64,000 bases of DNA, from assembly GCA_029945625.1 (NCBI GenBank), contig JAQSCW010000047.1, positions 1 through 64,000 on the forward strand. Reading direction: 5' to 3'. The position numbers were made by a program, and so were the translations under genes. Below the pieces are notes generated by a model. It searched no databases. It saw only the letters and a program-made list of their open reading frames with translations, and had not been told where the DNA came from. Positions 1-22,612 of this stretch are shown here, in pieces. Numbering within the stretch: position 1 is the first letter of the stretch; each line of letters opens with the position of its first letter. This DNA comes from a bacterium. GTDB lineage: Bacteria > Bacteroidota > Bacteroidia > B-17B0 > Aurantibacillaceae.

Positions 1-50
1 GTGAGGGGTCAGTTTAGAGTGAAATGTAGGGGTCTGTTTGAGTGAAATTT
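1..50. mobile_element. Edge of a probable IS21-family insertion sequence
   Basis: Two direct copies of a 20-base motif starting GGGGTC (5-25 and 28-48, ending GTGAAAT) sit at the extreme left. Repeated motifs of this type near the ends resemble Bacteroidota IS21-family termini. The restriction gene next to it loses family similarity exactly here, as expected at an insertion point. No transposase is visible because the rest lies outside the window, so the family assignment is an inference. Confidence 0.45.
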
Positions 51-509
51 CCATATAATATACCACTCGTTAATATTGGTTATTACAAGTTGTTTCAGTT
101 GAAAGTTTCCAACTTTATTGCGTTCGTCTAAGTAGTAAAGGATTAGTTCGTGAAGTGCTTTTTTGTTTGGGTTGTTAGCAGAAACCATTTCATTGGTGTT
201 GCTTGGTCGCTTGGCTTCAATGATAACTGCAACATCGCTGTTGGTGGTTTTGTCTAAGTGAATTACAAGGTCTTTTTTGTCTTTGGTATTGATGGCGTTG
301 GTGTCACGATAGTAAGTGTCACGCAAAAAGTCACGCAGGTCGTTTTTTAAATGCTCCTCGCTTTCGTCCTTAGGTCGTTTTTCTATAACGCTTATTTTGT
401 CGAGCAAAGCAATGAGGTTTGTTTTGAAAACGTCAATTTCGCTTCTTAAAGGCTTTTGCTTTAAGAAGGCTTTTAGTGCTTTTTTCGGTGTCTGCGTTAT
501 TAGTTTCAT
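9..509 (-). pseudogene. N-terminal fragment of a type IIG restriction-modification enzyme
   Basis: The fragment is about 166 residues from ATG at 509 (a TTG lies one codon upstream). It matches the start of large single-chain Eco57I-like restriction-methylase proteins: a helix with a KRPKDESEEHLKNDL stretch, then DLVIHLD and VIIEAKR, which looks like the PD-(E/D)xK nuclease core, then ITNINEWYI. Family members run to roughly 1000 residues and carry the methyltransferase motifs later; none are present here. After NEWYI the reading frame becomes unrelated sequence and stops, coinciding with the IS21-like end. I infer that insertion destroyed the gene. It is the cargo of partial cassette C11. 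Confidence 0.7.
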
Positions 510-512
510 CAA

Positions 513-755
513 ATTTTCTCTGTCAATTATTTAGGTCGTAAAGATAAGTTTTAAAACCGCTTTTCAGTCCAAAGTTGCCGTCAAATTGTCAACCGTCCGA
601 ATGTCCTTAGTGCGGTTGGGCAAAATTAAATGTGCTGCAATTTGGGTCGGCTTGTGCGGTTGCATTGCAGCTCTTTTAATTTTGCGAAGGGCTGGCTTTT
701 CTGTCCAATGTCAGCACGAATGTTGATGGTTGCACGGTCGTCCTACACTTGCTTG
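513..755. other. Non-coding start of cassette C11 with a swapped-arm hairpin
   Basis: No gene is seen. A strong inverted repeat (621-640 with 664-684) is built from the same arms as the module hairpins elsewhere in the array, ATGTGCTGC and GCAGCTCTTT, but in the opposite order. It resembles the right-hand modules of cassettes C1, C4 and C8 and lies in the same place, next to the cassette start. Confidence 0.5.
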
Positions 756-850
756 TAACGTAATGCAAGCAGGCGTGAGTTTTTTGCTAAGTCCATTTAT
801 GTATTTGAGCGTTAACCCGCAAAAAATTACGCTTGCTTGCGGTTATATGC
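754..850 (-). other. attC-like site E1
   Basis: Long imperfect inverted repeat, arms 765-787 and 819-840, with one extra base in the left arm. It is bounded by TAAC (756-759) and GTTA (842-845). The loop contains GAGCGTTAAC, the motif of the main loop family. It is the 3' site of cassette C10. Confidence 0.8.
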
Positions 851-891
851 TGTAAGCGCCACACAGTTTTATTTAGTTTACGTGTCAGTGT

Positions 892-1443
892 TTATTTGTG
901 TTGTTCTCTAATTGCTTTTTCAGCGTTTTTATTAAAACAGTCCTTACCAACTAATTTATATTCTCTAGTGTCTAAACCGTGTTTTTTTATTGCTTGTTCA
1001 AATAGTTGAAGATATTTTTCGGCATAAATTTCGGATTGTTGGTCTGAACAGTCGTCAAAAATTGCTTGTGCGACATATTCCTTTCTTGGGAAATTCATTT
1101 CAGATGGATTATTAAAGTCCGTTATTACACCCATCATTGAATTGAAGGATAGTTCAGGTGATGCGTTAATACCTTGAAAATATAAAGAAAATCTTTTTGT
1201 CGGAATGTCGTTTTTGTCGTAAACTGGTTGGTGCAAAATTAATGTAAACGAAACTTCATCATTCATTTCATTTAGCAGTCCAAACTGAAATCCTTTTTCC
1301 TCCTCTGTCAATATGAATTTCTTATAGTTGGGAAATTTTGACAAACTTTTTAGTGAAGGTTTTAATTTCCAATTTAATTCTCCGGTGGCTAATTTTTCTT
1401 CGGCAGTTTCATTTTTGCCAAATAAATTTTTAAAGAAAGACAT
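892..1443 (-). CDS. Hypothetical protein, cassette C10 second gene
   Basis: A 183-residue soluble protein with no signal peptide. It opens with MSFFKNLFGKNE, a start often seen on small Bacteroidota cytoplasmic proteins of unknown function, followed by mixed alpha/beta sequence with several aromatic strands. I do not recognise the family. The gene starts 3 bases after the upstream gene ends (1447), so the two form an operon in one cassette. The stop lies about 45 bases inside the cassette end. The protein looks intact and its codon use is AT-rich like the rest of the array. Confidence 0.75.
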   Translation of the reverse strand: MSFFKNLFGKNETAEEKLATGELNWKLKPSLKSLSKFPNYKKFILTEEEKGFQFGLLNEMNDEVSFTLILHQPVYDKNDIPTKRFSLYFQGINASPELSFNSMMGVITDFNNPSEMNFPRKEYVAQAIFDDCSDQQSEIYAEKYLQLFEQAIKKHGLDTREYKLVGKDCFNKNAEKAIREQHK

Positions 1444-1446
1444 AGT

Positions 1447-2013
1447 TTAAGTTTTAAGTTTATTAATTGTATTAGATAAAATTATTTTCCTTTTAACTCT
1501 GTATTCGTCAAAGGAAATTTGATTTTTTAAATATTGGTCTTGGATTAAATTATGATTAGCCATAAAATACTCCAAGGATGAATTTTTAATAATTAGCATA
1601 TGGACGTCCTCTAAACTTTTGTCAATTAAAAAGTCTGAATCTTTTTGAAGGTCGTAATAATAATTATTTACAATTTTTATCGCTTCTCGTAAAGTATCTT
1701 TGTCTTGGTAAATATATGGATTACTTTTTTCGTCTTTGTTTTTTATTTTAATTGCTTCTGCTAAAACATTCTCGTGTGTCCTAGAATAATTTTTCTTTTC
1801 TGTTTGAGCAATAGCCTTTCGTAACAATTCATCATTTAAACCACTTAATTGGTCTTTAACATTTTGCTGATTTTCAAATTCCTTATGAGCAGTAAATCTT
1901 GGAATGACCTTTATTCCTAAAAACTTTTGAAGTAAATAATAAATTAAACCAAGGAAAAACATTACGACCAACATAATGCCAAGTCCTGTTATTATTCCTA
2001 TGAAATTGTCCAT
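1447..2013 (-). CDS. Hypothetical membrane-anchored protein, cassette C10 first gene
   Basis: A 188-residue protein with one N-terminal transmembrane helix (about residues 5-30, rich in Leu, Val, Ile and Phe) followed by a polar, helical, Lys/Asn-rich cytoplasmic part. Several charged segments between residues 45 and 120 could form coiled coil. No family is recognised. The start codon is 62 bases inside the C10 start boundary (2075), as in a normal cassette, and the downstream gene follows after 3 bases. A small membrane-plus-soluble pair inside a mobile cassette could be a defence or toxin-antitoxin-like unit, but nothing in the sequence proves it. Confidence 0.75.
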   Translation of the reverse strand: MDNFIGIITGLGIMLVVMFFLGLIYYLLQKFLGIKVIPRFTAHKEFENQQNVKDQLSGLNDELLRKAIAQTEKKNYSRTHENVLAEAIKIKNKDEKSNPYIYQDKDTLREAIKIVNNYYYDLQKDSDFLIDKSLEDVHMLIIKNSSLEYFMANHNLIQDQYLKNQISFDEYRVKRKIILSNTINKLKT

Positions 2014-2065
2014 ATATATTTAGTCTAATTTTTATCTTTTGTCATACCAACGTCGGTGCGCTTAT

Positions 2066-2205
2066 TGCATATAACGTTTTGCAGCTACAAGAAGTTGGCG
2101 ATTTCGAAGCACTAAACTGTCTGCCACCACAAAACTTGATACGAAGCACAAAGCTTCATTTAACCACTGAACCGCCAATTTCTTGTAGGTGCTGTTAGCT
2201 GCTGC
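2066..2205 (-). other. attC-like site E2
   Basis: Arms 2081-2100 and 2173-2192 pair along about 20 bases, bounded by TAAC (2072-2075) and GTTA (2194-2197). The loop is longer (about 70 bases) and not of the main loop family. It is the 3' site of cassette C9, the acetyltransferase cassette. Confidence 0.8.
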
Positions 2206-2236
2206 CCTTTCTGTCCAAATTCTGTGTCTTGTAAAA

Positions 2237-2842
2237 TTACAATTTTTCATATTTATCTTCATACAACTTTATAAGCATTTGTTGAACATCATTCCATTCT
2301 TCTTCTATAATACTATAGTAAGCTACACTTCTTTTGTCGCCATTTCTTATAACTACGTCTCTTAAAACTCCTTCAAATTTTCCACCAACTCTTTCAATAG
2401 CTTTTCTTGAACGTATATTTTTATTTGAAGTGATTATTTGTACTCGAATTGTTTTGAGTTCTTCAAAGCAATGTTTTAATAATAGGTATTTACACTCCTC
2501 ATTGTATCCTTTCCCCCAGTATTCTGGCAAATACCATGTATATCCAATTTCCAAATTGCGATGTTCTTCATTTAGGTGTAAGTACCTTGTCGAGCCCATT
2601 ACTTTTTCAGTTGCTTTATTTATAACAACAAAAGGATATTGCTCACCTTTGTCTCGTTTTATTATAGCCTCGTTCAATGCCCCAAGAAGTTTATCTTTAT
2701 CTGTCCCTTTAACAGGCATAAAGGTCCAGATAATTTCATCATCACTTAATCTAATAAGTTCGTCAAAATACTGTTCTGTTAATGGTATTAATCTAACTTT
2801 TTTACCTTCTAATATTAGAGGATGTTTTATCCAATTTGTCAT
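2237..2842 (-). CDS. GNAT acetyltransferase, RimJ/RimL-like
   Basis: A 201-residue GCN5-related N-acetyltransferase, expected to move an acetyl group from acetyl-CoA to an amine, often a protein N terminus or small molecule. The start LEGKKVRLIPL is the usual beta-1 strand of the RimJ/RimL group. The segment YLPEYWGKGYNEECKYLL (about 103-120) sits where the acetyl-CoA pyrophosphate loop falls, and RSRKAIERVGGKFEGVLR (about 144-161) is the conserved helix and strand after it. Length is normal for the family. It is the only gene of cassette C9, with ATG 83 bases from the cassette start. Substrate unknown; acetyltransferases are common integron cargo. Confidence 0.88.
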   Translation of the reverse strand: MTNWIKHPLILEGKKVRLIPLTEQYFDELIRLSDDEIIWTFMPVKGTDKDKLLGALNEAIIKRDKGEQYPFVVINKATEKVMGSTRYLHLNEEHRNLEIGYTWYLPEYWGKGYNEECKYLLLKHCFEELKTIRVQIITSNKNIRSRKAIERVGGKFEGVLRDVVIRNGDKRSVAYYSIIEEEWNDVQQMLIKLYEDKYEKL

Positions 2843-2909
2843 TGATTATTTTTTATTGAATGTAAAATATAATTTGGTTCAAGTTTTTCAAAGTTCAGTT
2901 TGTCTTCAT

Positions 2910-3040
2910 AGGGTTGCAGCTAACGTTTTGCGGCCTTGCCTAGTGCCTGTCGTCCGCAATGCTAAATGTACGAATGTCCAACGAGATGCCAAAATACCAC
3001 AGAAAACAGGCATTAGGCAAGACCGCTGTTATGTTTAGTG
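2910..3040 (-). other. attC-like site E3
   Basis: Arms 2930-2949 and 3007-3026, bounded by TAAC (2921-2924) and GTTA (3028-3031). The loop carries AAATGTACGAATGTCC, shared with E4 and with the isolated site at 42.1 kb. It is the 3' site of the large cassette C8. Confidence 0.8.
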
Positions 3041-3418
3041 CGCCCCACACAGTTTGCGACCAAGTGTCAGCCGTAATTGTCCGAAGAATTTGTTAGATGT
3101 CTTACGGAAATTAAAAGCCCGAATTTACCATGAACTGGTTTATTTTTTTGCGTGCGTTGGCAATGCGCTTTGAAAAAGTGCCCGTTCTAATAGGCGTTTA
3201 GGCTGTTGGAAATTTTACAAGCTTATTTTGCGCCACTAAAAATTACTTCCTTTGAAAAGAAGTGCAAAATGTGCTTGAAAAATGTGCGCTGGCGTGGGTG
3301 TCCGCTTACACACAGGTCAATACGTTAAGTTGGTTGTAAATGCCAATTAGTATTGAACATCCAAAAGCATCGCGGTGCATGGCTAGATTAAGTCATATAA
3401 TTTAAAATAGAAAATCTA
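3041..3418. repeat. Left flanking module of cassette C8 (LM-a)
   Basis: Non-coding. A hairpin at 3218-3277 pairs CAAGC and ATTTTGCG with their partners around an unpaired TT/GT step. Surrounding sequence (CGTTGGCAATGC, GGAAATTTTACAAGC, a CCACTAAAAATTA loop, AAATGTGCGC) matches the left modules in cassettes C4 and C1. It lies between E3 and the stop codon of the secreted protein gene. Confidence 0.65.
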
Positions 3419-5206
3419 TTACTCAAGTATTACAAACTTTTCATTGTTCACACCATAACTGGTAATAATTTGTAATTGATAATATCCCTGAGGAAGCTTT
3501 AAATCCAATTCTGTTGTTTCATTAAAGTAGCTACTGAATACTGTCTTTCCACCCAAGTCTGTAATTCTAAGTTGTCCAGAGCCTGGGTAATTGATGTTTA
3601 TTTTACCAGTCGATGGATTCGGATAAATTTGAATATGCGACTTTGTACTATTCTTCTGTATTGCTGTCGTATTGTTTGTGCAGGATACAACAACTTGCGT
3701 GAGTAAAGCAGAGTTTATACAGCCATTTAAGTCTGTGCCAGTTACTGTATAGGTTGATGTCACTGATGGAGAAACAATACTTCCTGAACTCCAAGTATAA
3801 GTGTTTGCACCAGTTGCTGAAAGTGTTGCTGAAGTCCCTAAACAAATGGAACTAGACGAAGAAGTAGCGTTAATATTAGGTAAAGAATTAACTGTAATTG
3901 TGGATGTGGCTTGATTAGAACAACCATTTGCGTCCGTTCCTGTAACAGTATAAGTTGTATTACTAATAGGTGTTACGATATTGCCAGAACTCCATGTATA
4001 AGTATTGGCACCAGTTGCAATTAGTGTAACAGAATTTCCAAAACAAATAGAAGTATTAGTTGCGATTACATTTGGCAATAGATTAACGATAATATTGGCA
4101 GTAACTGTATTTTGACAGCCTGTATTTGTATTTGTTCCAGTTATTGTATAATTTGATGTTGAGCTGAAATTAAAAATCGTTGGTAAATAATTATATGATG
4201 AAGCGCCAGTTGGAGTAAAATTAGCAACGCTACCATAACAGGTTGTAACATTGCTTACCGCTACTGTTGGATTTGGGTTAACTGAAACCAAAACTGTTTG
4301 TGAAGCAGTTGTGGAACATGAGTTATTGCTGCCCGTTACTGTATACGTGGTATTAAAAATTGGACTAACCACTTGTGTGCTAAATGAAATATTCGTCAGA
4401 TTTGAACCTGAAGCATTAAGTGTTGTTGAATTACCGCTACAAATTGTGGAAGGCGAAGCATTAATCGACACAACTGGATTTCCAACTACTGTAACTGAAA
4501 TTGTTTTTGTATTTGAAGTATTTGTAACTCCGAGATTTGTTAGAGTATTAGTTCCACTGGTATTGTATGCGGTTAAAGAAACAATGTAAATGCCAGGTGT
4601 GTTAAAAGCAACCTGAAAATTATTTGCATTTACAGTACCAGAGGGAGTAGACCCAATTGAAGAATTTGGCGAAACTGTTACTGAGGAAATCGACCCCCCA
4701 GGAATTGTCCAAATAAATTTCTTAGAATTCCATAATGAAGATGTAGTAGAAGAATTCTGAAAATTAAGAGTTGTTCCTTGACAAATGACTGTACTTGTCT
4801 GTGAAAAATTAGCTGTAGGGGTTGGTATGTTAGCTGAACATAAAACAGCTTGAAAGCTTGTATTAGTTATTGCACTACCAGAAATACTTGCTAATGTGTA
4901 TGAAACTACATAAGAACCAGTATCTGTAACTGAAGTAAGATAACCGAAATTTGGAAATGTTGAAAGAGAGGCTTGTGAATTCGCAATGAAATTGCTCGGG
5001 AGTGTTAACGTACCATTTTTTATAACAGTCCTAGATGAAATAGAGAAGCCAGAGGCGGCAGTAGCAGAGTAAGTTGTGAATCCATTGCATCCGATTGTGT
5101 AATGACTTCCCGGCAACGCATTGCCCACTTGAAAGGTAGTTGTTTGCGAAAATCCATCAAATGTTATAATTGTAATCAAAAACCAAATTAGCTTTTGTGT
5201 GTTCAT
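3419..5206 (-). CDS. Secreted repeat protein with T9SS type A sorting tag
   Basis: About 595 residues from ATG at 5206. This start was chosen over the longer frame because it gives a clean signal peptide (MNTQKLIWFLITIITFDGFS then Q). The body is a chain of immunoglobulin-like beta domains of the kind seen in Bacteroidota adhesins: repeats of about 75 residues carrying TYTVTG(T/S)...GC and LxATGANTYTWSSG. The last ~70 residues are a T9SS type A tag (IQIYPNPSTGKI ... LPQGYYQLQI ... KFVILE). It should be exported and either attached to the surface or released. It is one of three genes in cassette C8; at 1.8 kb it is unusually long cassette cargo. Confidence 0.85.
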   Translation of the reverse strand: MNTQKLIWFLITIITFDGFSQTTTFQVGNALPGSHYTIGCNGFTTYSATAASGFSISSRTVIKNGTLTLPSNFIANSQASLSTFPNFGYLTSVTDTGSYVVSYTLASISGSAITNTSFQAVLCSANIPTPTANFSQTSTVICQGTTLNFQNSSTTSSLWNSKKFIWTIPGGSISSVTVSPNSSIGSTPSGTVNANNFQVAFNTPGIYIVSLTAYNTSGTNTLTNLGVTNTSNTKTISVTVVGNPVVSINASPSTICSGNSTTLNASGSNLTNISFSTQVVSPIFNTTYTVTGSNNSCSTTASQTVLVSVNPNPTVAVSNVTTCYGSVANFTPTGASSYNYLPTIFNFSSTSNYTITGTNTNTGCQNTVTANIIVNLLPNVIATNTSICFGNSVTLIATGANTYTWSSGNIVTPISNTTYTVTGTDANGCSNQATSTITVNSLPNINATSSSSSICLGTSATLSATGANTYTWSSGSIVSPSVTSTYTVTGTDLNGCINSALLTQVVVSCTNNTTAIQKNSTKSHIQIYPNPSTGKININYPGSGQLRITDLGGKTVFSSYFNETTELDLKLPQGYYQLQIITSYGVNNEKFVILE

Positions 5207-5299
5207 GTAATATTTTATCCTTTTTGTTTTCATTTTATAGTTTTTAAAGTTTAAATTCTGATTCATGAACTTTTCATTTTAGAGTTTTAGAATATATCA

Positions 5300-6010
5300 C
5301 TAGTGCAATAATTTTAGAAAGTCCGAAATAAAAAGTGTTGATTCTGTATTAAGTTTTCGGTGCGATGAAATAAGCCTTTCTTTGCCTAACGCACTTGCAA
5401 GTGCATCTTCTTGAAATCGCGCTGTGTTTTTATAGTCTGGTAAATATTTCCAACAAGCAAAAAATCCGACACGAAATTTCTTCATTGTGGATTTAATTCT
5501 TGGATTTCTTTCTATACTGTCAAAATCAAAAACACCTGATGGGTAGTATAATAAACCTTTTGGAAGAACATCATTAGTCAAATAATAACTCTTTAAAACA
5601 TGAATATTTCTTTGAGCATTGGCCATTAGAGTCCATTCTGGAATTATGTATTCGCCATGGCAGAAACGAATAATATGTTGAAACAATCTTTCAGGAATAT
5701 TAATTGATTTACCAACATAGAGGGGCAAATACTCGCCTTTAACTTTAATGCCCCATACATAAATCCCAGATAATTTTTTTAAAGTGATATCTACTACATC
5801 TCCTGTAATTTTAATTTCGGGCTGTGGCTCACTTTCACTATACCTACTTTTTTTAAAAAACTCCTTTATTTTCAGGTATTCTAAAGAGTAAGGCCCAATT
5901 AATGAGGATTTGTGATTTGTTAATTTGTTATTAGTTTGTATCATAAATAAAGTCAGTTCGTCTCCATGGGCAGATGTACTCAAACTTACTTCAATTGTAC
6001 AGTTTTTCAT
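5300..6010 (-). CDS. GIY-YIG domain protein, cassette C8
   Basis: About 236 residues, starting at ATG 6010 (TTG just upstream). The GIY-YIG nuclease signature is visible: SGIYVWG (about 81-87), then LYVGKS (about 97-102), then NIPERLFQHI with the conserved Arg. Such domains cut DNA with one metal ion and occur in homing and restriction enzymes and in some phage-defence proteins. The N-terminal ~80 residues and the C-terminal ~100 are not recognised. It is divergent from the kelch gene, with 65 bases between the start codons. Stand-alone nuclease activity is inferred. Confidence 0.65.
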   Translation of the reverse strand: MKNCTIEVSLSTSAHGDELTLFMIQTNNKLTNHKSSLIGPYSLEYLKIKEFFKKSRYSESEPQPEIKITGDVVDITLKKLSGIYVWGIKVKGEYLPLYVGKSINIPERLFQHIIRFCHGEYIIPEWTLMANAQRNIHVLKSYYLTNDVLPKGLLYYPSGVFDFDSIERNPRIKSTMKKFRVGFFACWKYLPDYKNTARFQEDALASALGKERLISSHRKLNTESTLFISDFLKLLH

Positions 6011-6037
6011 CAATTCAAATAATTCAAATCGTTCAAG

Positions 6038-6070
6038 TTTGAATATCAGTATTTTAAGTCCTTATATTTG
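6038..6070 (+). promoter_or_regulatory. Bacteroidota-type promoter of the kelch gene
   Basis: TTTG (6038-6041), a 21-base spacer, then TATATTTG (6063-6070). This matches the Bacteroidota consensus TTTG / TAnnTTTG. The gene's ATG begins only 5 bases after the -7 box, so the transcript would have almost no leader. Confidence 0.6.
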
Positions 6071-6075
6071 CGGCA

Positions 6076-7362
6076 ATGGAAGCAAAAGAACTCAAAAAAA
6101 GAATTGAAAAGGTCTATGGCCAAGAAGTTAAATATGCTAGAGATTGTGACCCGCTTGCAATCGAAATTTCACAAAGTACCGGAGGGACTGTTTCGGCATC
6201 TACTGTAAAGAGACTATTGGGATTTGTTAAAACGTCAAGTAAACCAAGCCAATATACACTTGATACAATTGCAATATACCTTGGTTTTTCTGATTGGAAT
6301 AAATTGGTTTCAAGTGAAAATGCAACAGTTCCAAATGAAAATGGCTCTACAAATAAAGAGAATGAAATAGAAGAAGTTTTAATCACTACAAAAAAAGTTA
6401 ATAGTAAAATCAAAAAGAGTGTTGTCGCTTTTTCGTTAATAATAATATTGTTTTTGTTTTTTGGTTGGTTTTCTATGTCTGATTCAAGTACAAATTATAC
6501 CCAATTGCCTCATTTGCCAGAATTAAGAAATGCAGGTAGGGCTGTAAGCTATGATAAAGCAATTTATTATGTTGGAGGTTCAGATGCGGTTTACGTGCGA
6601 AACGATAATTGGAAGTTTGATTTTGATATGAAAAAATGGATAGAACTATTAGCGATGCCCACAGCCAGAGCTGAGTTTGGAGCCACAATAGTTATTAGTA
6701 AAATTTATTGTTTTGGCGGATGGTTAGGAAATGATATTGGTGAAACAGATGTTGCTGAAGCTTATGATATTCAAACGAATTCGTGGGAAAAGTTACCAAA
6801 ACTTCCTGCGAAAATAACTTCTGCAAATGCGGTTTCGATAGGCTCTGAAGTTTTTATTATTGGCGGAACAACTGGAAAAACGAGAACACATTTTATAAAA
6901 TATGATACACGGAATAAATTATATGAAGAATTACCAGCACCAAAAACCCAACGATTGTATTGTGCAATGGTTACAGCAAATGGCTTAATTTATGCTATTG
7001 GAGGAAACTCCTTTACTGATGGAGAATACAAATGGCTCAATAACCTTTCCGTTTATAATCCAAAAAATAAAATTTGGACAGAACTTGCGCCATTACCTCT
7101 TGCAATAACAAGAAGTTGCGCTTTAGTCAGAGGGAATATGATTCATATTGCAGGTGGCTCAGACGGCTTTGGAAACGATAATGGGACTATAAGAAACAAT
7201 CATTTTGTTTACGACATACAAAAAAATATTTGGGAAGAAGAAAATCCTTTACCATATATAATTTCAGTTCATCAGTTTATTGTTCATGCTGGAAAATTAT
7301 TTCTAATTGGAGGTACATCACAATTTCCTAATCCTGTGAACAAATTTGTCTTATTGAATTAG
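6076..7362 (+). CDS. Membrane-anchored kelch-repeat protein with N-terminal DNA-binding-like domain
   Basis: A 428-residue protein in three parts. Residues 1-80 form a helical domain (SASTVKRLLGF ... SQYTLDTIAIYLGFSDW) seen at the start of many Bacteroidota regulators and probably cytoplasmic. Residues about 115-133 are one transmembrane helix. Residues 140-428 contain about five kelch repeats (the GG doublets in VGGSDA, GGTTGKT, IGGNSF, AGGSDG and IGGTSQ), predicted to be a periplasmic beta-propeller. It lies opposite to the cassette sense and has its own promoter. The layout suggests a transmembrane sensor, but the ligand and targets are unknown. Confidence 0.75.
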   Translation: MEAKELKKRIEKVYGQEVKYARDCDPLAIEISQSTGGTVSASTVKRLLGFVKTSSKPSQYTLDTIAIYLGFSDWNKLVSSENATVPNENGSTNKENEIEEVLITTKKVNSKIKKSVVAFSLIIILFLFFGWFSMSDSSTNYTQLPHLPELRNAGRAVSYDKAIYYVGGSDAVYVRNDNWKFDFDMKKWIELLAMPTARAEFGATIVISKIYCFGGWLGNDIGETDVAEAYDIQTNSWEKLPKLPAKITSANAVSIGSEVFIIGGTTGKTRTHFIKYDTRNKLYEELPAPKTQRLYCAMVTANGLIYAIGGNSFTDGEYKWLNNLSVYNPKNKIWTELAPLPLAITRSCALVRGNMIHIAGGSDGFGNDNGTIRNNHFVYDIQKNIWEEENPLPYIISVHQFIVHAGKLFLIGGTSQFPNPVNKFVLLN

Positions 7363-7800: not shown

Positions 7801-7915
7801 ACATAACGTTATGCGGCTACAAGTTGTGCCGCCGTCCGAATAGTTAAATGTACAAATGTCCGCCGAAAGTTACAACACCGAAATGCGCGGCATAACTTGT
7901 AGGTGCGGTTAGGCG
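7795..7915 (-). other. attC-like site E4
   Basis: Arms 7813-7832 and 7887-7906, bounded by TAAC (7804-7807) and GTTA (7908-7911). The loop has TAAATGTACAAATGTCC, shared with E3 and the 42.1-kb site. The stop codon of the C7 gene overlaps its R'' core, which fits the consensus RYYYAAC exactly (GCCTAAC). Confidence 0.85.
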
Positions 7916-8427: not shown

Positions 8428-8431
8428 AATA

Positions 8432-8535: not shown

Positions 8536-8560
8536 GGTGGCGGCACACAGCTGCGAACAA

Positions 8561-13805: not shown

Positions 13806-13816
13806 ATAATAAAACG

Positions 13817-14755: not shown

Positions 14756-14794
14756 GGGCGCACACAGCTTAAATTCCGCTGTCGTTGTCAGCCG

Positions 14795-15922
14795 TTATTG
14801 TTTAATAATTTTTTTCCTTGATATACTTTTGTCTGTTGAGATTTCTAAAAAATACAAACCGCTGTCGAAACCCGTGAGGTCAAATGTAGTTGTCTTATTG
14901 GATAAATTGATTTTATAAATAGTTTGTCCGAGTGAATTAATGATTGAAGCTTGCGTTTTCTCGTAGGAATAATTCTCCAAATCTATTGTCAATGAGTTAG
15001 AAACGGGATTAGGAAAAATTGAAAAATTAGAAAAACTATTTTCTTCTTTTATACCGGCATAAATAGAATAGTTTGGATTTTTTATTAATATGGATTGTGT
15101 TACTGTGTCGCTACAGTTATTTGTAATGTCGTGTGTCCGCAACACTACCAACCAAGGAAATGTCTTTTCAAATGGAGAAGGGTAAGGATATAAATGGCTC
15201 ATTGTCGGTGTTGTTACATAAATAGGGTTGCCAAATCCTACAATTTCCCATTGATAGGATGTTGCATTTCGGTTCATTGCTGCGAACGTAACTAATGCGC
15301 CATTTACTTGGTAGTTTATGTTAATCTCAAAATTTGCAGAGCAGTTTTGATAATTTAAACTGGAAGAATAGTTGAATTTTACTGTTTGAAAATATTCTTT
15401 GAAAACTTTATATGAAATAGTGTCGGAATGAACAGCTTTAATCTTAGAGACGAACAGTGCTGACTGCCACCCTCCGCCAAACCAACAATTAAGAGCATTA
15501 TAACACGGACCAGTGTCGCCGCTTACAGAATAATAAGGATTACAGCCCGATGTCAAGTTAGTTAATTGATAACTGACACCGATAACTGTATCAGTATAGA
15601 AAAGATTACAAGATATTGTGTCGGGTTTATTTATTGTTATTAGCTTTTCAATGTAGTTGGAACAATTTGAAATGGTGTCGTGAGAAAACAGAGTAACTAA
15701 ATACTGTCCGTCGTCAGGAAAAATATGGATTGGATTCTTAATGTTTGAACCGTCACCGTCGCCAAAACTCCAATAATAGTGTGCGTTTGATAAAGTTGAA
15801 GTGTTATTAAATGTAATTGTGTCAGCAGAACCAGAATATGTATAACTCGCAGTACAGGTCTGTCCGAACGATACCTTTGATAAAGCTATTAAAAGAAAAG
15901 ATATTTTAATAATTGTCTTCAT
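14795..15922 (-). CDS. Secreted PKD-domain protein with T9SS type A tag, cassette C2
   Basis: A 375-residue exported protein. The signal peptide is residues 1-20 (MKTIIKISFLLIALSKVSFG). A PKD-type beta domain follows (about 22-95: YYWSFGDGDGSN and DDGQYLVTL are the usual PKD landmarks), then a less certain region with paired Cys residues, then a second PKD-like part (ATSYQWEIVGFG). The last 75 residues are a T9SS tag (FSIFPNPVSNSL ... GLYFLEISTDKSISRKKII). It is the only gene of cassette C2 and reads in cassette sense. A surface or adhesion role is likely but not shown. Confidence 0.88.
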   Translation of the reverse strand: MKTIIKISFLLIALSKVSFGQTCTASYTYSGSADTITFNNTSTLSNAHYYWSFGDGDGSNIKNPIHIFPDDGQYLVTLFSHDTISNCSNYIEKLITINKPDTISCNLFYTDTVIGVSYQLTNLTSGCNPYYSVSGDTGPCYNALNCWFGGGWQSALFVSKIKAVHSDTISYKVFKEYFQTVKFNYSSSLNYQNCSANFEININYQVNGALVTFAAMNRNATSYQWEIVGFGNPIYVTTPTMSHLYPYPSPFEKTFPWLVVLRTHDITNNCSDTVTQSILIKNPNYSIYAGIKEENSFSNFSIFPNPVSNSLTIDLENYSYEKTQASIINSLGQTIYKINLSNKTTTFDLTGFDSGLYFLEISTDKSISRKKIIKQ

Positions 15923-15999
15923 TTGATTTAAACGATTAATTGTCTATATTATTGTTTTAGAACCTAATGTAATTTGTCTGCCTGAATCTCTGTCCGCCC

Positions 16000-16105
16000 T
16001 ATTGCTTGTAACGTTATCCAAGCAGGCGTTAGTTTTTTGCTTGTCCAAGTTATGCATTTGAGCGTTAACACGCAAAAAATTACGCTTGCTTGGGGTTAGT
16101 ACCAG
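16000..16105 (-). other. attC-like site E10
   Basis: Arms 16018-16040 and 16072-16093, bounded by TAAC (16009-16012) and GTTA (16096-16099 region). Its sequence is almost the same as E5 and it has the main loop family. It is the 3' site of the first cassette, C1. Confidence 0.86.
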
Positions 16106-16446
16106 TTGCCGCCACACAGTTTAACTTCTGGTCATGTGTCCGCCGATAAATTTGTAATGTCGGCAAAACTAATTTTTATGTCCGAACTTTTTGATTTTTT
16201 TTGGTCGGCTTTTTTACACACAGTTCGATACACAAAGGCGGGTAGGAAATTTTACAAGCTTATTTGGCGCCACTAAAAATATTTTCCTTTGAAGAGAAGC
16301 ACCAAATGTGCTTGTAAATGTGCGCTAGCTAACTAGTGGGGTCAATTTACAAACAGGTCAAACGGAATAGTTGTCGAATAAAATAATCAGTTGTAAAGTC
16401 AAAATATTTTATTTATTTTTATTTCCTCTTTAAACAATTATCGATT
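16100..16446. repeat. Left flanking module of cassette C1 (LM-c)
   Basis: Non-coding. It is very similar to 10020-10270, beginning with the same CAGTTGCCGCCACACAG. The hairpin at 16255-16314 pairs CAAGC and ATTTGG arms around the TT/GT step with a CCACTAAAAATATT loop. About 130 AT-rich bases follow before the next gene, with no clear promoter. Confidence 0.7.
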
Positions 16447-17574
16447 ATGAAAAAAAATTTCATCCTCTTATTATTTGCTTTTCATGTAACAATCCTTGTT
16501 AATGCACAAACAACACAACTCCGCGGTAATATTAATATAACAGCAACAAGTAACAGTACTCAAATAAAGAAAATGATTAAAACAACTTGTACGCAAACTA
16601 TTCTACCAGGCTTTGAAATTACAGATGAATACACTTTTAAAAACGGAGTTCATAGTTTTACTGCTACCGCGATTACGCCGTCAACAACTACCTCTTAGAC
16701 AATTGCTAAAGAAAAAACTATTTCTGTAAATATGCCTTTAGCGGGAAAAGCAAATATTATAAAGGATGAAAAAGACCCAACAATCCTTAGAGTTAATTTC
16801 TGGTTAAACGCTGAAAATAAGATTCCTGCAACAACACCATTTAGATATGAAACAAAAGAAATCGATTGTGCCGGAAACCCCGTTACTACAATTCATCCTC
16901 CAAGAACACTTTTAACCGACACCTTATGTTACTTGCAGTTAGTTCAATTAGCACCCACTGTTACTGAAAAATGGTTTACTCATGCAGAAACAGTTATAGC
17001 AGTTTTAGATAATTTAGGTAACCCGCTTTATTATTTAGTCGATAAATACGATCGTGATGGTGATTATCGGTTAGAACTTAAAAACAGGGAATATGTGAGT
17101 TATAGAACAAGCAGCATCGATTTGGGACCCCTTGTTGTGCCTTTTAAATTAAGATCTAACATTAAAAGAGACACAATAAGCGTTGGCCAACAAATAGAAT
17201 CAGATGTAAATTTGGGTTTGTTTTTAGCTTATAGTTACGGACAATATAGACTTAGAAGAGAAGGAGATGAATATAAAGATCTTAGTGGCTGGAAAGTTAA
17301 TGCAGGAGGCTTCTTAGATTTTGGAACTATTACGCTTTCAAAAAGCTCAACTTCAATAGCCGATCTGCCATTAGGCGAAAAACAAACAGCCCCTATCTTC
17401 GTAATTTCAAGCGGTCTTGGTGTTACAGTGTCAAAGTGGGATATTAATGCAGGAGTGTTTGTAGGTTGGGATTTTGGGATTGGAGACTATGCGCAAAGGT
17501 GGAATTATAATCGCAAAGCGTGGGTTGGTATGGGTTTTGGCTACAACCTATCAAACTTCTGGAAGAAAAAATAA
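16447..17574 (+). pseudogene. Secreted protein gene interrupted by one in-frame amber codon
   Basis: Reading from ATG 16447, the frame stops at TAG 16696-16698 after 83 codons, then continues open in the same frame to 17574, so the two halves (16447-16698 and 16699-17574) are one gene with a single nonsense codon. The N terminus is a signal peptide (MKKNFILLLFAFHVTILVNA, then Q). The distal part has repeated beta strands with alternating aromatics near the end (GVFVGWDFG, GMGFGYNL), which suggests a small outer-membrane or periplasmic beta protein. Without the stop it would have 375 residues. Read-through or a sequencing error are alternatives to true inactivation. It is oriented against cassette sense beside LM-c. 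Confidence 0.7.
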
Positions 17575-17616
17575 GTTGTTGAGAAACCTTAAATGTGCTT
17601 GCAAAAGCGTTAAGAC

Positions 17617-20600
17617 TTAAGCAATCATATTTACAATCTCTGCTCTAATGCCTTTTAGATTGAAGGTAAGCCTTACGTTATATTTCTTATTTTCAATTAG
17701 CTTTAATTCCACATCAGGTTTTCTTATGTAAAAAAATTGCTGAAACTCAAGAACTTTAGCTTGTGTTCTACCTTTGGAGTTTTTTGAAAGGATGGCTTCA
17801 AATACCTTAGGCTCATTAGTTGTTGAGTCCAGCCAGTATTCACAAACTGCTGGGTTTAAGTAAGTGAATGTGGATTTAATTTCATTAAGGTGCTCGTAAG
17901 TGTTTTTAAAAGCTCGATTGTATGATTCTGCAACAAAACTATAAAAATGATATCTTAATTTTTCTCTTGTTTTTAATGATGGATTTGTTTTGACAATCTC
18001 GAAGAAATTGACAATGTTTTGCGAATAGTGCAAATTTCTACCATAATATTTAAAAAGAATTTTCGCCACTTCGTCATTGTATTTGTAATGACCCATCTCT
18101 TCAATTAATTCTTCCGCTTCATCTTCTTTCCCTGATTCAAATAAGTAATTATATTTTAAAACTAAGGAGTAAGGACGAGTTGAATCTTCCTCATACAATT
18201 CGTCGAGGTATTGAAGCAAAGTTTTATTGCCCTCGATTTTCTTGTCTTTAAATAACCTAATGTAGCCTACTTTTAAGGCAGATATTTTTTCGGTGTTTTC
18301 GTAAACAGCATTTTCAGCAATATCGAATAAGTCTTGAATTAATATGTGTTGTCTTAGATAATCAGTTTCCTCGTATTTAGTATTTACTAGACACCACATT
18401 TCAAAATTTATATAGTCTGAATAGCTATACGAACTGCAAGGATCCTCAATGACTTTTATTTTAAATAGTTCGCGGGCTTCATTAACACAATGCTCACTTT
18501 CAACAGCTTTCCCTTTGTCAAAATACAATTTAGCCAAGTCAAAGTTTATAGACGCTCTTCTATGAATAATTCTATGGTTTCGCTTTTCTTTCATGTCACC
18601 TGAAAAACTTAGACGAGTTAACGCGTTTAATAAAGAACGTTCATCCCTTCTAACGGTTTGCAAATTGATAGCATAATGAAGATTGAAATGTTGGTTAGAC
18701 TCAAACTCTTTTGCTAAAAAGTCATAGAGTTTATTGATTTTATCTTGATTGAGTTTGAAATTATCACGAAGTGCTTTCAATAAATCTATTACAAGTCGGG
18801 CTGAGTATGCTGAATCATTTAATATTGCGAATAACTTCCTTATTTTTTCAAATAATTTATCTTCATTTTTAATCGTTGCATTTACTAAATGTTCAGATAA
18901 AATTGAGTGCTTTGTTCTAAAATACAAATCTGGCTCCGTTCCATGCGCAGGGAGAATTTCTTCTATTAAAATACCTTTGCAATCATCTTCCATAATATCT
19001 CTTATAAAAGCATCCCAATCTTTGCTCACAACTTTCATAAGAACAGCTGCTGGCATAAGGATTTTAAATTGATAAAGAAGCGAAGTGTATACAACTGCAT
19101 CTTTGCCTTTTTCGGAAAGTTGTTTATATGCATCTTCTAGGATTATTTCAAGATGATTTTCTTGATTATTTATTAGCCCTAATAAAGCAATAAACGCCTC
19201 GCCATTAAATTCTTTTATTACTCTATCTATTAATAAATTTTTCTGTGAATTGTCTTTGTATGATACGAGGCCAACATTTGATAGTTTTTCTACAAATTCA
19301 CCAGCTTCATTTTTATCAAAATTGAGCTTTACATTAATTTTGTTGCAATTTTTATAAGAGCTCTTTTTAAGTTGCCGAGTCAAAATGTTTTCCCGAATTG
19401 ATGTAATAAAAAGCACATTAAATTCAGAGAATTGCTCAAGACTTACACGATTTCTCAGATTCATCAGCTCCTTAAATTGACTGTCTACTTCTAGTTCATT
19501 ACATAAAAGAATTATGTTTTTGGCCTTACTTAAAGTAAATAGTTCTATTAGATCAGCTTCAGATAATTTTTCTGGTTCAATTACTTCAAATGCCATAGTT
19601 GAATCTAACTCATGAAGTAATGAATGAATAACCCTATAGGTAAAAGTAGATTTACCATTCCCGAAATGACCTTCTAAAAACAAAATAGGTACAATTCTTT
19701 CACCTTTGAGTTTCAAAATTCTATCAATCTCCTGAGTAACTTTCTTTACCTCACTACTTTTAATAACATCATAATTTTTTCTGATTACATCATATGTTGG
19801 TCTATTACCTTTATAAAACTCTTTTTGAATAACAGTGTGGATTGTGTTTGTATCTGTTAATTGAATTAAACTTTCGCCAAGGGACAATGATAGTTTAGCA
19901 GGCAATAATAGATGCTGATTTGACGTATTTGTATAGCTAATATGTTTCCTTTTAACTATCGTTGAAGCCTTATTCTCAACCCATTCGTCGTAAAGTTTGA
20001 AAAATTCCGCTGGAAGAATTTTAATAATGCAAATTTTCTTCTCCGTATAATAGGGTAAACGGTGCTCGTTAACAAATGGGTCTATCGAATACATCCATTT
20101 CTTATTCCTAAAATTATGGGAGTCAAATTTATCAATAAGATAGCTTGATAATCCATCACTAAATGAAAATCCAATTGAAAGGAAATTAATTGTTGGTGAA
20201 AGTATTTCTAACGATGAAAAAATCGACCTATAATATTTTTTACTATCATTAAAGTCTTTAGTTGATAAGACAAACGGATATTTACTTTTGTCTGAAGCGC
20301 AACCATTAAGCTTAACATATTTTATTTCAGATGGAGTATTATATCCTGAGTATTCTTCGCGACTTTTTACAGTTCTAATTTTGTATGCTTTAGGAGATTT
20401 TACGGACAATTCGTCAAAAGCTCTTTCAATTAATAAATCATAATTTGTTGTTATCATTTCTCTCCATTGAATTGATGCGATGGAACGATGTACATCAGTG
20501 ATTTCGAGAGAACTGATTAGTTTAAGAACGTAGTCATCAAGTTCGTTTCTATCGAATTCAGGCATGGCGCTTAATAAATCTACAAACTCTACGAGATCTT

Positions 20601-20787
20601 TTGAGTGCAATTCAACACCCAATCTGTCTTCATAATATTCAATAATATCATTGCTTAAAAATCTCTTATTTGTAACTGAGGAACCTGCACCCAAAAAAAG
20701 TATAGTTTCAGATTTATAAATTGACGGGAATATCTTTGTTTCAAGAAATTCTTTGGTTTTATTGTTTATTTCTAAAATATGTTCCAT
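17617..20787 (-). CDS. SIR2-P-loop (STAND-like) defence protein
   Basis: A 1056-residue protein. Residues 1-270 are a SIR2-like domain: FLGAGSS (31-37), TTNYDLLIERA (113-123), FLSIGFSFSD (202-211). Residues about 365-560 are a P-loop NTPase with Walker A GHFGNGKST (373-381) and a Walker B-like IILLCNE (425-431). The C-terminal ~450 residues are helical and repeat-like, as in the sensor part of STAND proteins. Related SIR2-STAND proteins sense phage and destroy NAD+, so an abortive antiphage role is inferred. The position where a SIR2 His is usually found (KLHG) reads KLNG here (159-162), so NADase activity needs testing. It is the main cargo of cassette C1 and reads in cassette sense. Confidence 0.85.
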   Translation of the reverse strand: MEHILEINNKTKEFLETKIFPSIYKSETILFLGAGSSVTNKRFLSNDIIEYYEDRLGVELHSKDLVEFVDLLSAMPEFDRNELDDYVLKLISSLEITDVHRSIASIQWREMITTNYDLLIERAFDELSVKSPKAYKIRTVKSREEYSGYNTPSEIKYVKLNGCASDKSKYPFVLSTKDFNDSKKYYRSIFSSLEILSPTINFLSIGFSFSDGLSSYLIDKFDSHNFRNKKWMYSIDPFVNEHRLPYYTEKKICIIKILPAEFFKLYDEWVENKASTIVKRKHISYTNTSNQHLLLPAKLSLSLGESLIQLTDTNTIHTVIQKEFYKGNRPTYDVIRKNYDVIKSSEVKKVTQEIDRILKLKGERIVPILFLEGHFGNGKSTFTYRVIHSLLHELDSTMAFEVIEPEKLSEADLIELFTLSKAKNIILLCNELEVDSQFKELMNLRNRVSLEQFSEFNVLFITSIRENILTRQLKKSSYKNCNKINVKLNFDKNEAGEFVEKLSNVGLVSYKDNSQKNLLIDRVIKEFNGEAFIALLGLINNQENHLEIILEDAYKQLSEKGKDAVVYTSLLYQFKILMPAAVLMKVVSKDWDAFIRDIMEDDCKGILIEEILPAHGTEPDLYFRTKHSILSEHLVNATIKNEDKLFEKIRKLFAILNDSAYSARLVIDLLKALRDNFKLNQDKINKLYDFLAKEFESNQHFNLHYAINLQTVRRDERSLLNALTRLSFSGDMKEKRNHRIIHRRASINFDLAKLYFDKGKAVESEHCVNEARELFKIKVIEDPCSSYSYSDYINFEMWCLVNTKYEETDYLRQHILIQDLFDIAENAVYENTEKISALKVGYIRLFKDKKIEGNKTLLQYLDELYEEDSTRPYSLVLKYNYLFESGKEDEAEELIEEMGHYKYNDEVAKILFKYYGRNLHYSQNIVNFFEIVKTNPSLKTREKLRYHFYSFVAESYNRAFKNTYEHLNEIKSTFTYLNPAVCEYWLDSTTNEPKVFEAILSKNSKGRTQAKVLEFQQFFYIRKPDVELKLIENKKYNVRLTFNLKGIRAEIVNMIA

Positions 20788-20877
20788 TCAAGCGAATTTA
20801 GGTTTTAATATAAAGAACTAATTTACTAAAAATGGCTTAACTATTGCTTTTTTGAATCTATATTTCAATCCATAATA

Positions 20878-21236
20878 CCATACGCCTGTGGCTTGCGCCT
20901 TTGACTGAGCGGAGCGAGATGCGCAAACACGCTTGCCCGTCGGCAAGCAGCCAATTTGTTTTGTGCGCAGGCATTGCAGCTTATTTGTTTGGCTTTACCA
21001 CATGTCCTCCGAGGCCAAACAAATGTGCTGCAATTGTGATAGCCAACATGTGCCATGTCCCGGCACAAAAAAAGCGTCGGCAAAAAATTAAAACTGTCCT
21101 GAGAAAAAATTTGTTTAATGTTCGAGGGTCAACTGCAATGTTGTCGACCGGAATGCCAGAAGTTTTTGAAAACGAAAACTCTTTTGTCTACCGTAAAATT
21201 GTCATTGGAGATGTCCGTGCGGCAATTGGTACTAAC
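20878..21236. repeat. Right flanking module of cassette C1 (RM-c)
   Basis: Non-coding partner of 13817-14174, nearly the same over about 360 bases. The hairpin at 20973-21034 pairs ATTGCAGC and ATTTGTTTGGC arms around the TT/GT step. It lies just upstream of the SIR2 gene start (20787) and runs to the cassette boundary at 21236. Confidence 0.75.
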
Positions 21237-21300
21237 TACCATATACGCGCCATAAAGTGGCGCGTATACAACACCCCGTATGTTGTATTGGCCTCCTTGG
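21233..21300 (-). other. Candidate attI-like region and first cassette boundary (E11)
   Basis: TAAC at 21233-21236 closes cassette C1, and beyond it the attC-type arms are missing. Instead there are two adjacent palindromes: TATACGCGCC / GGCGCGTATA (21242-21268) and ACAACA / TGTTGT (about 21270-21288). This is where an integron would have its attI, between recombinase and first cassette. The GC-rich palindrome could also act as a terminator for the recombinase gene. Confidence 0.5.
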
Positions 21301-21409
21301 GTCACGTTCTGTATTTGTAAAGATATCCATTTTCTTAAATCATTATTCAATTTCTTTGCCTTTTCTGAATGAAAATATCCGGTACATCGTAGGTAATTCA
21401 ATTAATTCA

Positions 21410-22612
21410 CTACAAATAATCAAATGGCGACACAATCCTCTGGATGCTTAAAGTGCTCACATGAGTATATATTTCGGTGGTTCTGCTGCTACTATGACCC
21501 AAAATTTCCTGAATATACCGCAAATCAGTGCCGTTCTCCAATAAATGCGTGGCATAACTGTGCCTCAGCCAATGCAAGGTTACCGGTTTTGTGATCCCGG
21601 CTTTCTCCAAAGCCTGCTTCAACACATTCTGCAAACTTCTTGAGTCATACGCCCTCCCCTTCTCCATCCCCTCAAACAAAAAATTCTGCGGCTTATACGT
21701 ACTTATATACTCCTTAAGCATCAATTGCGTCTTATGACTAAGCGGTATAATCCTGTCCTTTCTGCCCTTGCCCCTTTTTACAATCAGTAAGCTCCGGTTC
21801 CAGTCAATATGGTTCAAACACAAGCCAATTAACTCGCCACATCGCAAACCGCAACTGTATATCAAACTCAGCATACTCTTGTGCTTTAAATTGCCATGGG
21901 CATCCAGTATCCGCTTTACTTCTTCCTTGTCCAATACATTTGGCAATACCTTGGCACGTTTTGGCCTTCTAATCAACTCCGGGTGCATCATCTTACTTTC
22001 CAGAATTCTAAAAAACAATTTGATGGCATTAATGATCTGATTTTGATAGGAGGCAGAACATCCCTGTGCAAGCACATAGTCATTATTAAAATTGATGAGA
22101 TCCTCGTGATTCAAACTTTCAACTTCCCGCTCACTAAAATAGCGCAAAAAAACACCCAGCCCTTCTGTATACGTAATTATCGTGTTTTCGCTATAGCGCC
22201 GCGAACGCATCCAACGCCTCAAACGCTCCATCTTTTGGATCTGCTCCGGTTGCAGACTCCCTATCCTCAAGGTTCTCTCCCTCCCTCGTTCACGCCCTCC
22301 ACTAACCTCATCCTTTTCCGCATGCTTAACTTCAACTTTCGCCTCATCCTCCACCTTATCCAACACCTTCCCCCCATCCAGCTCATACACCATCACCGCC
22401 TTTCCTGCAAAAGCAGATTCCAACTCAGCCCTCAACCCTAGTCTCTTTTCAAAATACCATTGCCTGTGCGTTTTTGTGTAGGTGGAGCCGGGCAGACTTC
22501 TTAATGCAGCCTGTAATATATCATCTTTGGGAAATTTTAATCCAATCACCCTCTTTTCGCGATGGATAAATTGCGTTACAATAATTCGGGGAAGCGTTTG
22601 GGTAGATTCCAT
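21410..22612 (-). CDS. Tyrosine recombinase at the head of the array
   Basis: A 400-residue site-specific recombinase. The N-terminal ~75 residues form an accessory domain seen in many Bacteroidota integrases, then a charged linker (80-115), a SAM-like core-binding domain (120-210) and the catalytic domain. Catalytic residues are all present: Arg257 (CGLRCGE), Lys in RGKGRKD (about 282), His347 and Arg350 (HWLRH), His373 (LGHSS) and Tyr382 (EIYTH). IntI-type integrases carry an extra helical segment between the Lys and the HxxR box; here the interval is only about 65 residues and has no such insert, so the protein is closer to XerC/D-type enzymes. It is transcribed in the same direction as the cassettes and stops 174 bases before the first boundary. 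I infer that it works on the array. Confidence 0.9.
   Translation of the reverse strand: MESTQTLPRIIVTQFIHREKRVIGLKFPKDDILQAALRSLPGSTYTKTHRQWYFEKRLGLRAELESAFAGKAVMVYELDGGKVLDKVEDEAKVEVKHAEKDEVSGGRERGRERTLRIGSLQPEQIQKMERLRRWMRSRRYSENTIITYTEGLGVFLRYFSEREVESLNHEDLINFNNDYVLAQGCSASYQNQIINAIKLFFRILESKMMHPELIRRPKRAKVLPNVLDKEEVKRILDAHGNLKHKSMLSLIYSCGLRCGELIGLCLNHIDWNRSLLIVKRGKGRKDRIIPLSHKTQLMLKEYISTYKPQNFLFEGMEKGRAYDSRSLQNVLKQALEKAGITKPVTLHWLRHSYATHLLENGTDLRYIQEILGHSSSRTTEIYTHVSTLSIQRIVSPFDYL

Follow-up and report, generated by a model that had tools for sequence, protein, structure and literature searches.

A putative integron-like cassette array in a Bacteroidota chromosome, associated with a tyrosine recombinase lineage separate from classical IntI

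The stretch analysed here, hereafter the window, comprises 64,000 nucleotides from a bacterium of the Aurantibacillaceae (GenBank GCA_029945625.1, contig JAQSCW010000047.1, positions 1 to 64,000). A recombinase gene, an attI-like site and a series of cassettes occupy positions 1-22612.

21410..22612, minus: integron integrase-like tyrosine recombinase (400 aa) that lacks the IntI/I2 insertion, transcribed toward the array (NF040815, TIGR02249, VchIntI alignment, AF2)
21233..21269, minus: attI-like site with crossover core G^TTA (plus-strand TAAC, 21233-21236) adjoining an inverted repeat (~21241-21269) (pairing with site 10 R'', 25-locus consensus)
16012..21235, minus: cassette 1, attI-proximal, its attC being site 10; SIR2-nSTAND defence-like protein (17617-20787, minus; Pfam SIR2_2, nSTAND_NTPase5; PADLOC ThsA-like) and an interrupted ORF (16447-17574, plus)
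14659..16011, minus: cassette 2; secreted protein with PKD and T9SS tail (14795-15922, minus)
14174..14658, minus: cassette 3; no long gene
9933..14173, plus: cassette 4; type II restriction-modification pair of a 5mC methylase (10278-12614) and an MvaI/BcnI-family nuclease (12618-13805), genes against the usual direction
9283..9932, minus: cassette 5; small lipoprotein with T9SS-like tail (9432-9797), named from the sequence itself
8442..9282, minus: cassette 6; unknown protein (8561-9238)
7807..8441, minus: cassette 7; small membrane protein (7909 to ~8424)
2924..7806, minus: cassette 8; T9SS protein (3419-5266), Kelch protein (6076-7362, plus) and between them an unknown ORF (5300-6013) that by eye looks like a GIY-YIG nuclease
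2075..2923, minus: cassette 9; GNAT acetyltransferase (2237-2842)
759..2074, minus: cassette 10; two unknown proteins (892-1443, 1447-2013)
1..758, minus: cassette 11, truncated at the contig end; first part of a type IIG restriction enzyme (9-512; DUF7149, REase_MTase_IIG)
756..845, minus (integron reading): attC-like site 1 (hairpin, covariance model)
2072..2197, minus: attC-like site 2 (hairpin, covariance model)
2921..3031, minus: attC-like site 3 (hairpin, covariance model)
7804..7911, minus: attC-like site 4 (hairpin, covariance model)
8439..8528, minus: attC-like site 5 (hairpin, covariance model)
9280..9370, minus: attC-like site 6 (hairpin, covariance model)
9930..10018, minus: attC-like site 7 (hairpin, covariance model)
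14171..14355, minus: attC-like site 8, long loop (excluded from the covariance model, which recovers it at E=7.7e-4)
14656..14746, minus: attC-like site 9 (hairpin, covariance model)
16009..16098, minus: attC-like site 10 (hairpin, covariance model)

The ten sites have the form TAACG...GTTA with stem-loops of 90-185 nt, far above chance expectation. In their consensus structure 12 pairs are changed on both sides, a level that 0 of 500 shuffles reach, and the L arms are free to vary in sequence while their pairing is kept. Thus, the ten attC-like folded sites of the first-pass annotation are borne out, as are its ten complete cassettes with a recombinase at one end; to these an eleventh cassette has to be added, truncated because window base 1 is contig base 1. 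The sites had also been called regularly placed, but their spacing is irregular, with cassettes of 0.5-5.2 kb. Rfam holds no family matching the sites; its mir-208 and SNORD78 matches are due to chance, and a Flavo-1 match is also present.

A covariance-model search, which had been proposed as a check, links the sites to the recombinase. Across 80 recombinase loci of the phylum, 64 of 64 sites lie 3' of the recombinase gene and on the opposite strand, while the model finds no match in the 692,431 b upstream of related recombinases. Just behind the gene, positions 21233-21236 had been taken for a loose boundary; they form part of an attI-like insertion site whose pairing with site 10 (R'' end) covers 12/12 compared positions. 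Over 25 loci the attI consensus is TATA-N4-A-G^TTA, with TATA(-9..-6), A(-1), G^TTA and A(+10) conserved, usually 92-113 nt past the recombinase stop codon (173 nt in the window). Related genomes are ~90% identical as far as the attI G^TTA and carry different cassettes beyond it, which supports the capture reading. Contigs end within 300 nt behind the recombinase gene in 22/80 loci, compared with 1/80 in front of it; some MAG contigs break off 90-250 nt past the recombinase.

The same search finds 15 further sites on other contigs of this genome, and the window has a lone site at 42080-42196, for which no empty site was found in 40 genomes of the genus (the flanks are too diverged). The window array is therefore part of a larger set broken by the assembly. 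Many sites lie in clusters remote from any integrase, and some site-rich genomes (such as G030) have no recombinase at E<=1e-40; part of the sites may thus be inactive or served in trans. It could be argued from these clusters and genomes that another recombinase moves the cassettes in trans and that the neighbouring gene is a passenger. We consider this very unlikely, given that the sites in the 80 loci keep to one side of the gene and one strand and that attI lies at a near-fixed distance behind it.

Duplicated cassettes settle the polarity of the array. One relative carries four copies of one cassette with exact and matching breakpoints, and in the duplicates the hairpin moves with the plus-left end, from which it follows that the reading strand of the integron is the minus strand, beginning at the recombinase and leading away from it. 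A plus-strand reading, in which each hairpin belongs to the cassette on its left, is ruled out by these duplicates; the polarity initially assigned to the array has to be reversed, with cassettes running leftward from attI. Of 115 cassette ORFs, 106 point away from the integrase. The cargo consists almost wholly of singleton families. Within a cassette, the two ends pair at 8.65 of 14 positions, as opposed to 3.99 for mismatched partners (100 cassettes). A second palindrome family occurs inside long cassettes.

Units bounded by GTTA...TAAC inverted repeats, some with that second palindrome family inside, might instead be dispersed palindromic repeats or MITE-like elements rather than captured cassettes. 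We give this explanation next to no credence: a single transposase needs one shared end sequence, but the inverted ends here are cassette-specific, matching within and not across cassettes, and the units stand head to tail with a single gene direction.

The recombinase has its best family score with NCBIfam NF040815 (218 bits, cut-off 220). TIGR02249 matches it in two stretches at 197 bits, below the cut-off of 265, which 0/60 of its relatives pass. The catalytic residues R257, K282, H347, R350, H373 and Y382 (R...K...HxxR...H...Y) are invariant in 41 sequences. Its closest PDB matches by sequence are the archaeal Xer proteins 4A8E and 5HXY; with the AF2 model (pLDDT 84.6), Foldseek ranks VchIntI 2A3V second, just after XerA. 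In alignments, the I2-bearing insertion is present in 12/12 IntI and absent from 24/24 sequences of the recombinase family, and the inter-motif spacing is 61 aa in the recombinase versus 102-103 aa in IntI. IntI forms a closed clade (support 100/100) that excludes the recombinase; Xer sequences fall outside the recombinase clade (98/97, on long branches), and there is no grouping with XerC/D or XerA. In the tree, IntI is a closer neighbour of the recombinase than Xer is, but the long branches leave the relation of the family to IntI open, and the divergent relatives L167-L170 are not one clade. An extra N-terminal domain, ~residues 1-76, is predicted to fold separately. It has no significant PDB sequence match, only weak Pfam matches to HARP/DUF5710 (best 6e-4 and 4.7e-4) and weak Foldseek matches to XPB and the SMARCAL1 HARP domain (E ~0.1); because these matches are all that is available, any role for it is an inference.

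The sites diverge from the classical type as well. Like classical attC, they are imperfect palindromes that fold into R and L stems. However, the core GTTRRRY occurs in only 13/145 sites and RYYYAAC in 10/145, about chance level given GTTA; the conserved core is RAAMCG^TTA. The criterion of extrahelical bases is not met either, with a one-sided bulge in only 23/141 stems and neither such a bulge nor an asymmetric loop in 112/141. By energy calculation only, the hairpin of the window-plus (bottom) strand is the more stable in 119/145 sites. That this is merely a classical integron of ordinary kind, somewhat diverged but with canonical IntI and attC, would account for the overall layout, the TIGR02249 match and the Foldseek rank of VchIntI. 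It is nonetheless highly improbable: the I2 insertion is missing, the recombinase stands outside the IntI clade, none of its 60 relatives passes the TIGR02249 cut-off, and most sites have neither the GTTRRRY core nor extrahelical bases. The initial impression that the parts differ from the classical ones thus holds, and extends to an integrase gene that points at its array.

As in a sedentary chromosomal integron such as the Vibrio superintegron, there is an integrase gene with an adjacent attI, a crossover at G^TT, head-to-tail cassettes of 1-2 genes with a 3' hairpin site and one gene direction, and a varied accessory cargo, with defence and toxin-antitoxin genes among it. By contrast with that system, the integrase has an extra N-terminal domain and no I2 insertion, its gene points at attI, the core differs, no extrahelical base is conserved, and the pairing of the cassette ends spans ~16-18 bp and includes a conserved 2-nt internal loop. 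The protein shares with IntI (TIGR02249; VchIntI PDB 2A3V, IntI1) the tyrosine recombinase core and a C-terminal SP.D.L-like end, but not the insertion or the clade. Unlike the XerA-like proteins of NF040815 ('site-specific tyrosine recombinase/integron integrase'), it is linked to attI and attC-like arrays and has the N-terminal domain. For insertion-less members of the 'Integron-like' simple tyrosine recombinase subgroup (Smyshlyaev 2021), the parts of that paper available to us describe no attI, attC or cassette arrays (PMC8138268). The remote clusters in the window genome and its relatives resemble CALIN (attC clusters without integrase), except that they carry the new site type.

Based on these data, we suggest that this stretch of the Bacteroidota chromosome is a genuine gene-capture array, integron-like in operation, in which recombination itself is inferred. 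The anatomy, polarity and boundaries of the array, and the replacement and duplication of cassettes at exactly those boundaries, are observed. As judged from sequence comparison, three features of an integron as a functional platform are present: an integrase adjoins attI, tandem cassettes carry a 3' hairpin attC, and exchange takes place at attI/attC boundaries, the last on comparative grounds only. The linkage and polarity of sites and recombinase, the conserved attI, the covarying cassette ends, the exact duplicate breakpoints and the differing cassettes at the same attI strongly support cassette capture, as first proposed. We therefore hold with considerable confidence that this is an integron-like capture system, in which an integrase gene and an attI are joined by arrayed cassettes that each terminate in a hairpin attC-like site, and that it is run by a tyrosine recombinase lineage separate from classical IntI. 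No observed cassette circle, recombination event or time series stands behind this reading.

In the mechanism that we propose, a cassette circle would most likely present one attC strand as a long hairpin, the recombinase would cut at the conserved core RAAMCG^TTA, and the cut attC would be joined to attI behind the recombinase's own gene or to another attC. Joining at this attI would place new cassettes beside the integrase and older ones farther off. That the recombinase is the actor, that folded single-stranded DNA is the substrate and that a replication-type resolution takes the place of second-strand exchange are inferences; covariation and the strand bias bear only indirectly on catalysis by the linked integrase on folded attC. 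The literature consulted offers no precedent for a single-strand route in the absence of I2. Cassettes might alternatively recombine as double strands at the short core, in the manner of Xer/Cre, with the hairpins serving another purpose. The core is indeed conserved in sequence, and the recombinase lacks I2; in IntI this helix prevents the exchange of the second strand on hairpins (PMC7790495). A double-stranded site, however, needs neither paired L arms of free sequence nor pairing cassette ends nor a favoured strand, and we regard the double-stranded route as unlikely, though not negligible. It is possible, though we advance it only tentatively, that the array represents a second, independently arisen integron type, in which a recombinase without I2 acts on folded single-stranded attC by another route, perhaps with its HARP-like N-terminal domain and the long pairing of the cassette ends as the means of recognising the hairpin. 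If so, single-strand cassette recombination evolved twice, or before I2.

We apparently deal with a variant integron type, not described in the literature consulted, that recurs in many Bacteroidota. The recombinase is found in 67/100 related genomes at E<=1e-40, the weakest matches of which may be other recombinases, and a plasmid-borne copy has two sites in the same arrangement. Cultured, non-pathogenic bacteria also carry the full system, for example Pelobium manganitolerans YS-25, whose locus has 8 sites, and Flavobacterium fontis DSM 25660. The earlier remark that integrons are rare in this phylum stands in part: IntegronFinder 2.0 reports a complete integron among Bacteroidetes proper only in Salinibacter ruber (PMC9024848), but canonical IntI above the TIGR02249 cut-off occurs in 105/395 genomes of the GTDB phylum. 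Among the TIGR02249 positives listed, only one is from the class of the window.

In the accepted account, integron integrases passed from recombining double strands to recombining single strands when they acquired the I2 helix. Direct proof is missing, as its authors state, because IntI1 is inactive once I2 is deleted (PMC7790495). A cassette system that occurs in nature without I2, and whose sites for the most part lack the extrahelical bases recognised by that helix, brings the question within reach of a test in cultured bacteria. An integrase of the window type would by design escape surveys that require an IntI domain (PMC2426708, PMC9668308). Given how many related genomes carry the recombinase, mobile genes in large number may have been overlooked in Bacteroidota, defence systems and one plasmid-borne copy among them.

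Ten attC-like sites of the form TAACG[A/T]3-4 - stem-loop - GTTA span 756-16098 of the window, which comprises bases 1-64000 of contig C47 in a draft genome of 4.1 Mb. Because the window starts at base 1 of the contig, the left end of the array is truncated by the contig end and not by biology. The consensus structure has 26 pairs, 12 of them with changes on both sides, and its covariation score is 0.382 vs 0.159 in shuffles. Across 90 matches to the model, the majority from related genomes and some of them reverse-strand matches at the same places, we counted 488 double-changed cells vs 147 in shuffles. Thus, the arms are conserved in structure rather than in sequence, as is typical of a folded-strand recognition site.

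The core of these sites is RAAMCG^TTA, while the classical attC core GTTRRRY fits only 13 of 145 sites, i.e. about as many as expected by chance, and the site model had no match in a class 1 integron stretch. The first 12 bp of the stem are uninterrupted or have only symmetric mismatches in 112 of 141 sites, and 23 have a one-sided bulge. In IntI, the extrahelical attC bases are read by the I2 insertion (PMC7790495). Because one-sided bulges are few and the enzyme lacks I2, this insertion and its extrahelical bases are largely missing together. In 119 of 145 sites, the more stable fold belongs to the window-plus strand, i.e. the bottom strand of the integron reading; that the substrate is single-stranded is inferred. 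Another genome (G046, loci L184/L185) has a large array that extends to the contig end, with 20 or more sites in some 35 kb, many of them at least 180 nt long.

In all 24 family sequences checked, the GKGxKDR region and HxLRH are 61 residues apart vs 102-103 residues in 12 IntI, and the alignment to VchIntI is gapped around the same place. Phylogenetically, support is 96/99 for a clade of these recombinases and 100/100 for an IntI clade, with both set apart from Xer (98/97); the exact branching order of the three is uncertain because of long branches. Canonical IntI was above cut-off in none of 60 relatives and in 105 of 395 genomes of the wider phylum, almost all of those listed being outside the class of the window; the I2-less family is present in 41 of the 395 (E<=1e-70), other classes included. 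Catalysis by the recombinase is inferred, as is the role of its N-terminal domain (residues 1-76), which is confidently predicted by AF2 and has a weak likeness to HARP/DUF5710 domains that is only a hint of DNA-structure recognition. A Chryseobacterium plasmid bears the recombinase with two sites downstream. In two complete or near-complete relatives (G001, G030), sites are spread over the chromosome in numerous small clusters; at least 15 are present in G030, which has no recombinase of the I2-less family at E<=1e-40. A Flavo-1 RNA match at 22748-22838 (36.7 bits, E=1.4e-4) does not reach the gathering score of 42.

When 80 loci encoding recombinase relatives were taken from public genomes and scanned with the site model, 64 of 64 sites lay 3' of the recombinase on the opposite strand (243,819 b scanned), and the 5' flanks (692,431 b) had none; one extra listed match came from the reverse strand of a palindromic site already counted. 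Matching the R'' end of the first site located the first-cassette junction, which in most loci is 92-113 nt downstream of the stop codon; in the window, the distance is 173 nt. The consensus of 25 loci has a nearly invariant TATA (-9 to -6) and an invariant A at both -1 and +10; directly upstream, many of these loci carry an inverted repeat. This conserved junction behind the recombinase is the attI. In 22 of 80 loci, the contig stops no more than 300 nt behind the gene, and in only 1 of 80 does it stop that close in front, the pattern that assembly breaks at a variable insertion point would produce.

In a relative, one cassette of ~440 nt is present four times with differing neighbours. The block common to the copies starts at TAAC^G of the left-hand site and ends at TAAC^GT on the right; therefore, in plus-strand reading, the hairpin goes with the cassette to the right of it. 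On the minus strand, the order is the classical one, with a cassette start TTA..., a gene, attC at the 3' end and crossover in ACG^TTA, and the array begins at the recombinase. Of 115 cassette ORFs, 106 are oriented away from the recombinase; the median cassette length is 1050 bp, and 50 of 86 cassettes have one ORF of at least 90 aa. Nearly every Pfam family was seen once among 105 ORFs drawn from many arrays, and the window cargo includes a type II R-M pair, a SIR2-STAND protein, a type IIG fragment, a GNAT enzyme and secreted T9SS proteins. Further features were observed in the window:

10278-12614, cassette-borne cytosine methylase whose residues 46-113 weakly match Arm-DNA-bind_5, a domain usual in tyrosine integrases
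16447-17574, two same-frame ORFs split by TAG at about 16696, probably a single interrupted gene
42080-42935, lone cassette with an attC-like site
42213-42521, minus strand, Xre-type HTH of the lone cassette
42502-42849, minus strand, Gp49/HigB-type toxin of the lone cassette
3221, 7486, 10189, 13917, 16258 and 20979, starts of a second palindrome

The lone cassette appears to be a non-attI insertion at TATC, directly upstream of the start codon of a gene for a PPIC-type isomerase. The second palindrome, GCTTATTTG-N-CAAATGTGC, lies just within both ends of long cassettes with differing cargo, and its left and right versions differ internally. Six of its 7 exact genome-wide copies are on the array contigs C47 and C51, and it also occurs in other fetched loci (L171 at 3027 and 5841; L180; L181); possibly, it represents a nested cassette shell. 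Two other arrays contain related group II introns (68% identical; L157 14905-16734 and L190 18449-20267, the latter with LtrA annotated), recalling the group II introns linked to classical attC sites.

Each cassette has a left end (GTTA NNNNN xG NNNNNNN) that is the reverse complement of the right end of the same cassette (NNNNNNN TT NNNNN TAAC) and not of the ends of other cassettes. Among 100 cassettes from many genomes, own ends match at 8.65 of 14 positions and mismatched partners at 3.99. Nearly all cassettes with good matches share a non-pair fixed at position 11, where one end has G and the complement of the other has A. Judged by eye, the 41 low-scoring cassettes are mostly due to missed intervening sites or a one-base shift. 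Because the two ends of a cassette are complementary to each other, a circular cassette would form one long hairpin, in which an outer stem of 4-7 bp is followed by an internal loop of 2 nt, 9 bp, an asymmetric spacer (about 5 nt vs 1 nt) and the L stem. Replication-type resolution is inferred.

Reviews name the phylum among integron carriers (PMC8618304), and with IntegronFinder 2.0 a single complete integron was reported from Bacteroidetes proper (PMC9024848). Presence of the IntI domain is a requirement of the methods in PMC2426708 and PMC9668308, and the models built in a taxon-specific study of attC include none for Bacteroidota (PMC8352920). We found no description of this cassette system in the literature searched, which did not include subscription journals and preprints.

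Cassette turnover is observed between genomes. Flavobacterium fontis DSM 25660 shares 90% identity with a related MAG over 10.9 kb that run through the recombinase and attI; the identity ends at ...TATAAACGAGTTA and is followed by two unrelated cassettes, and later matches are only attC-sized (126-135 nt). The same stop is found in four Cyclobacterium genomes and further pairs. Thus, cassette content differs between related genomes precisely at the predicted point.
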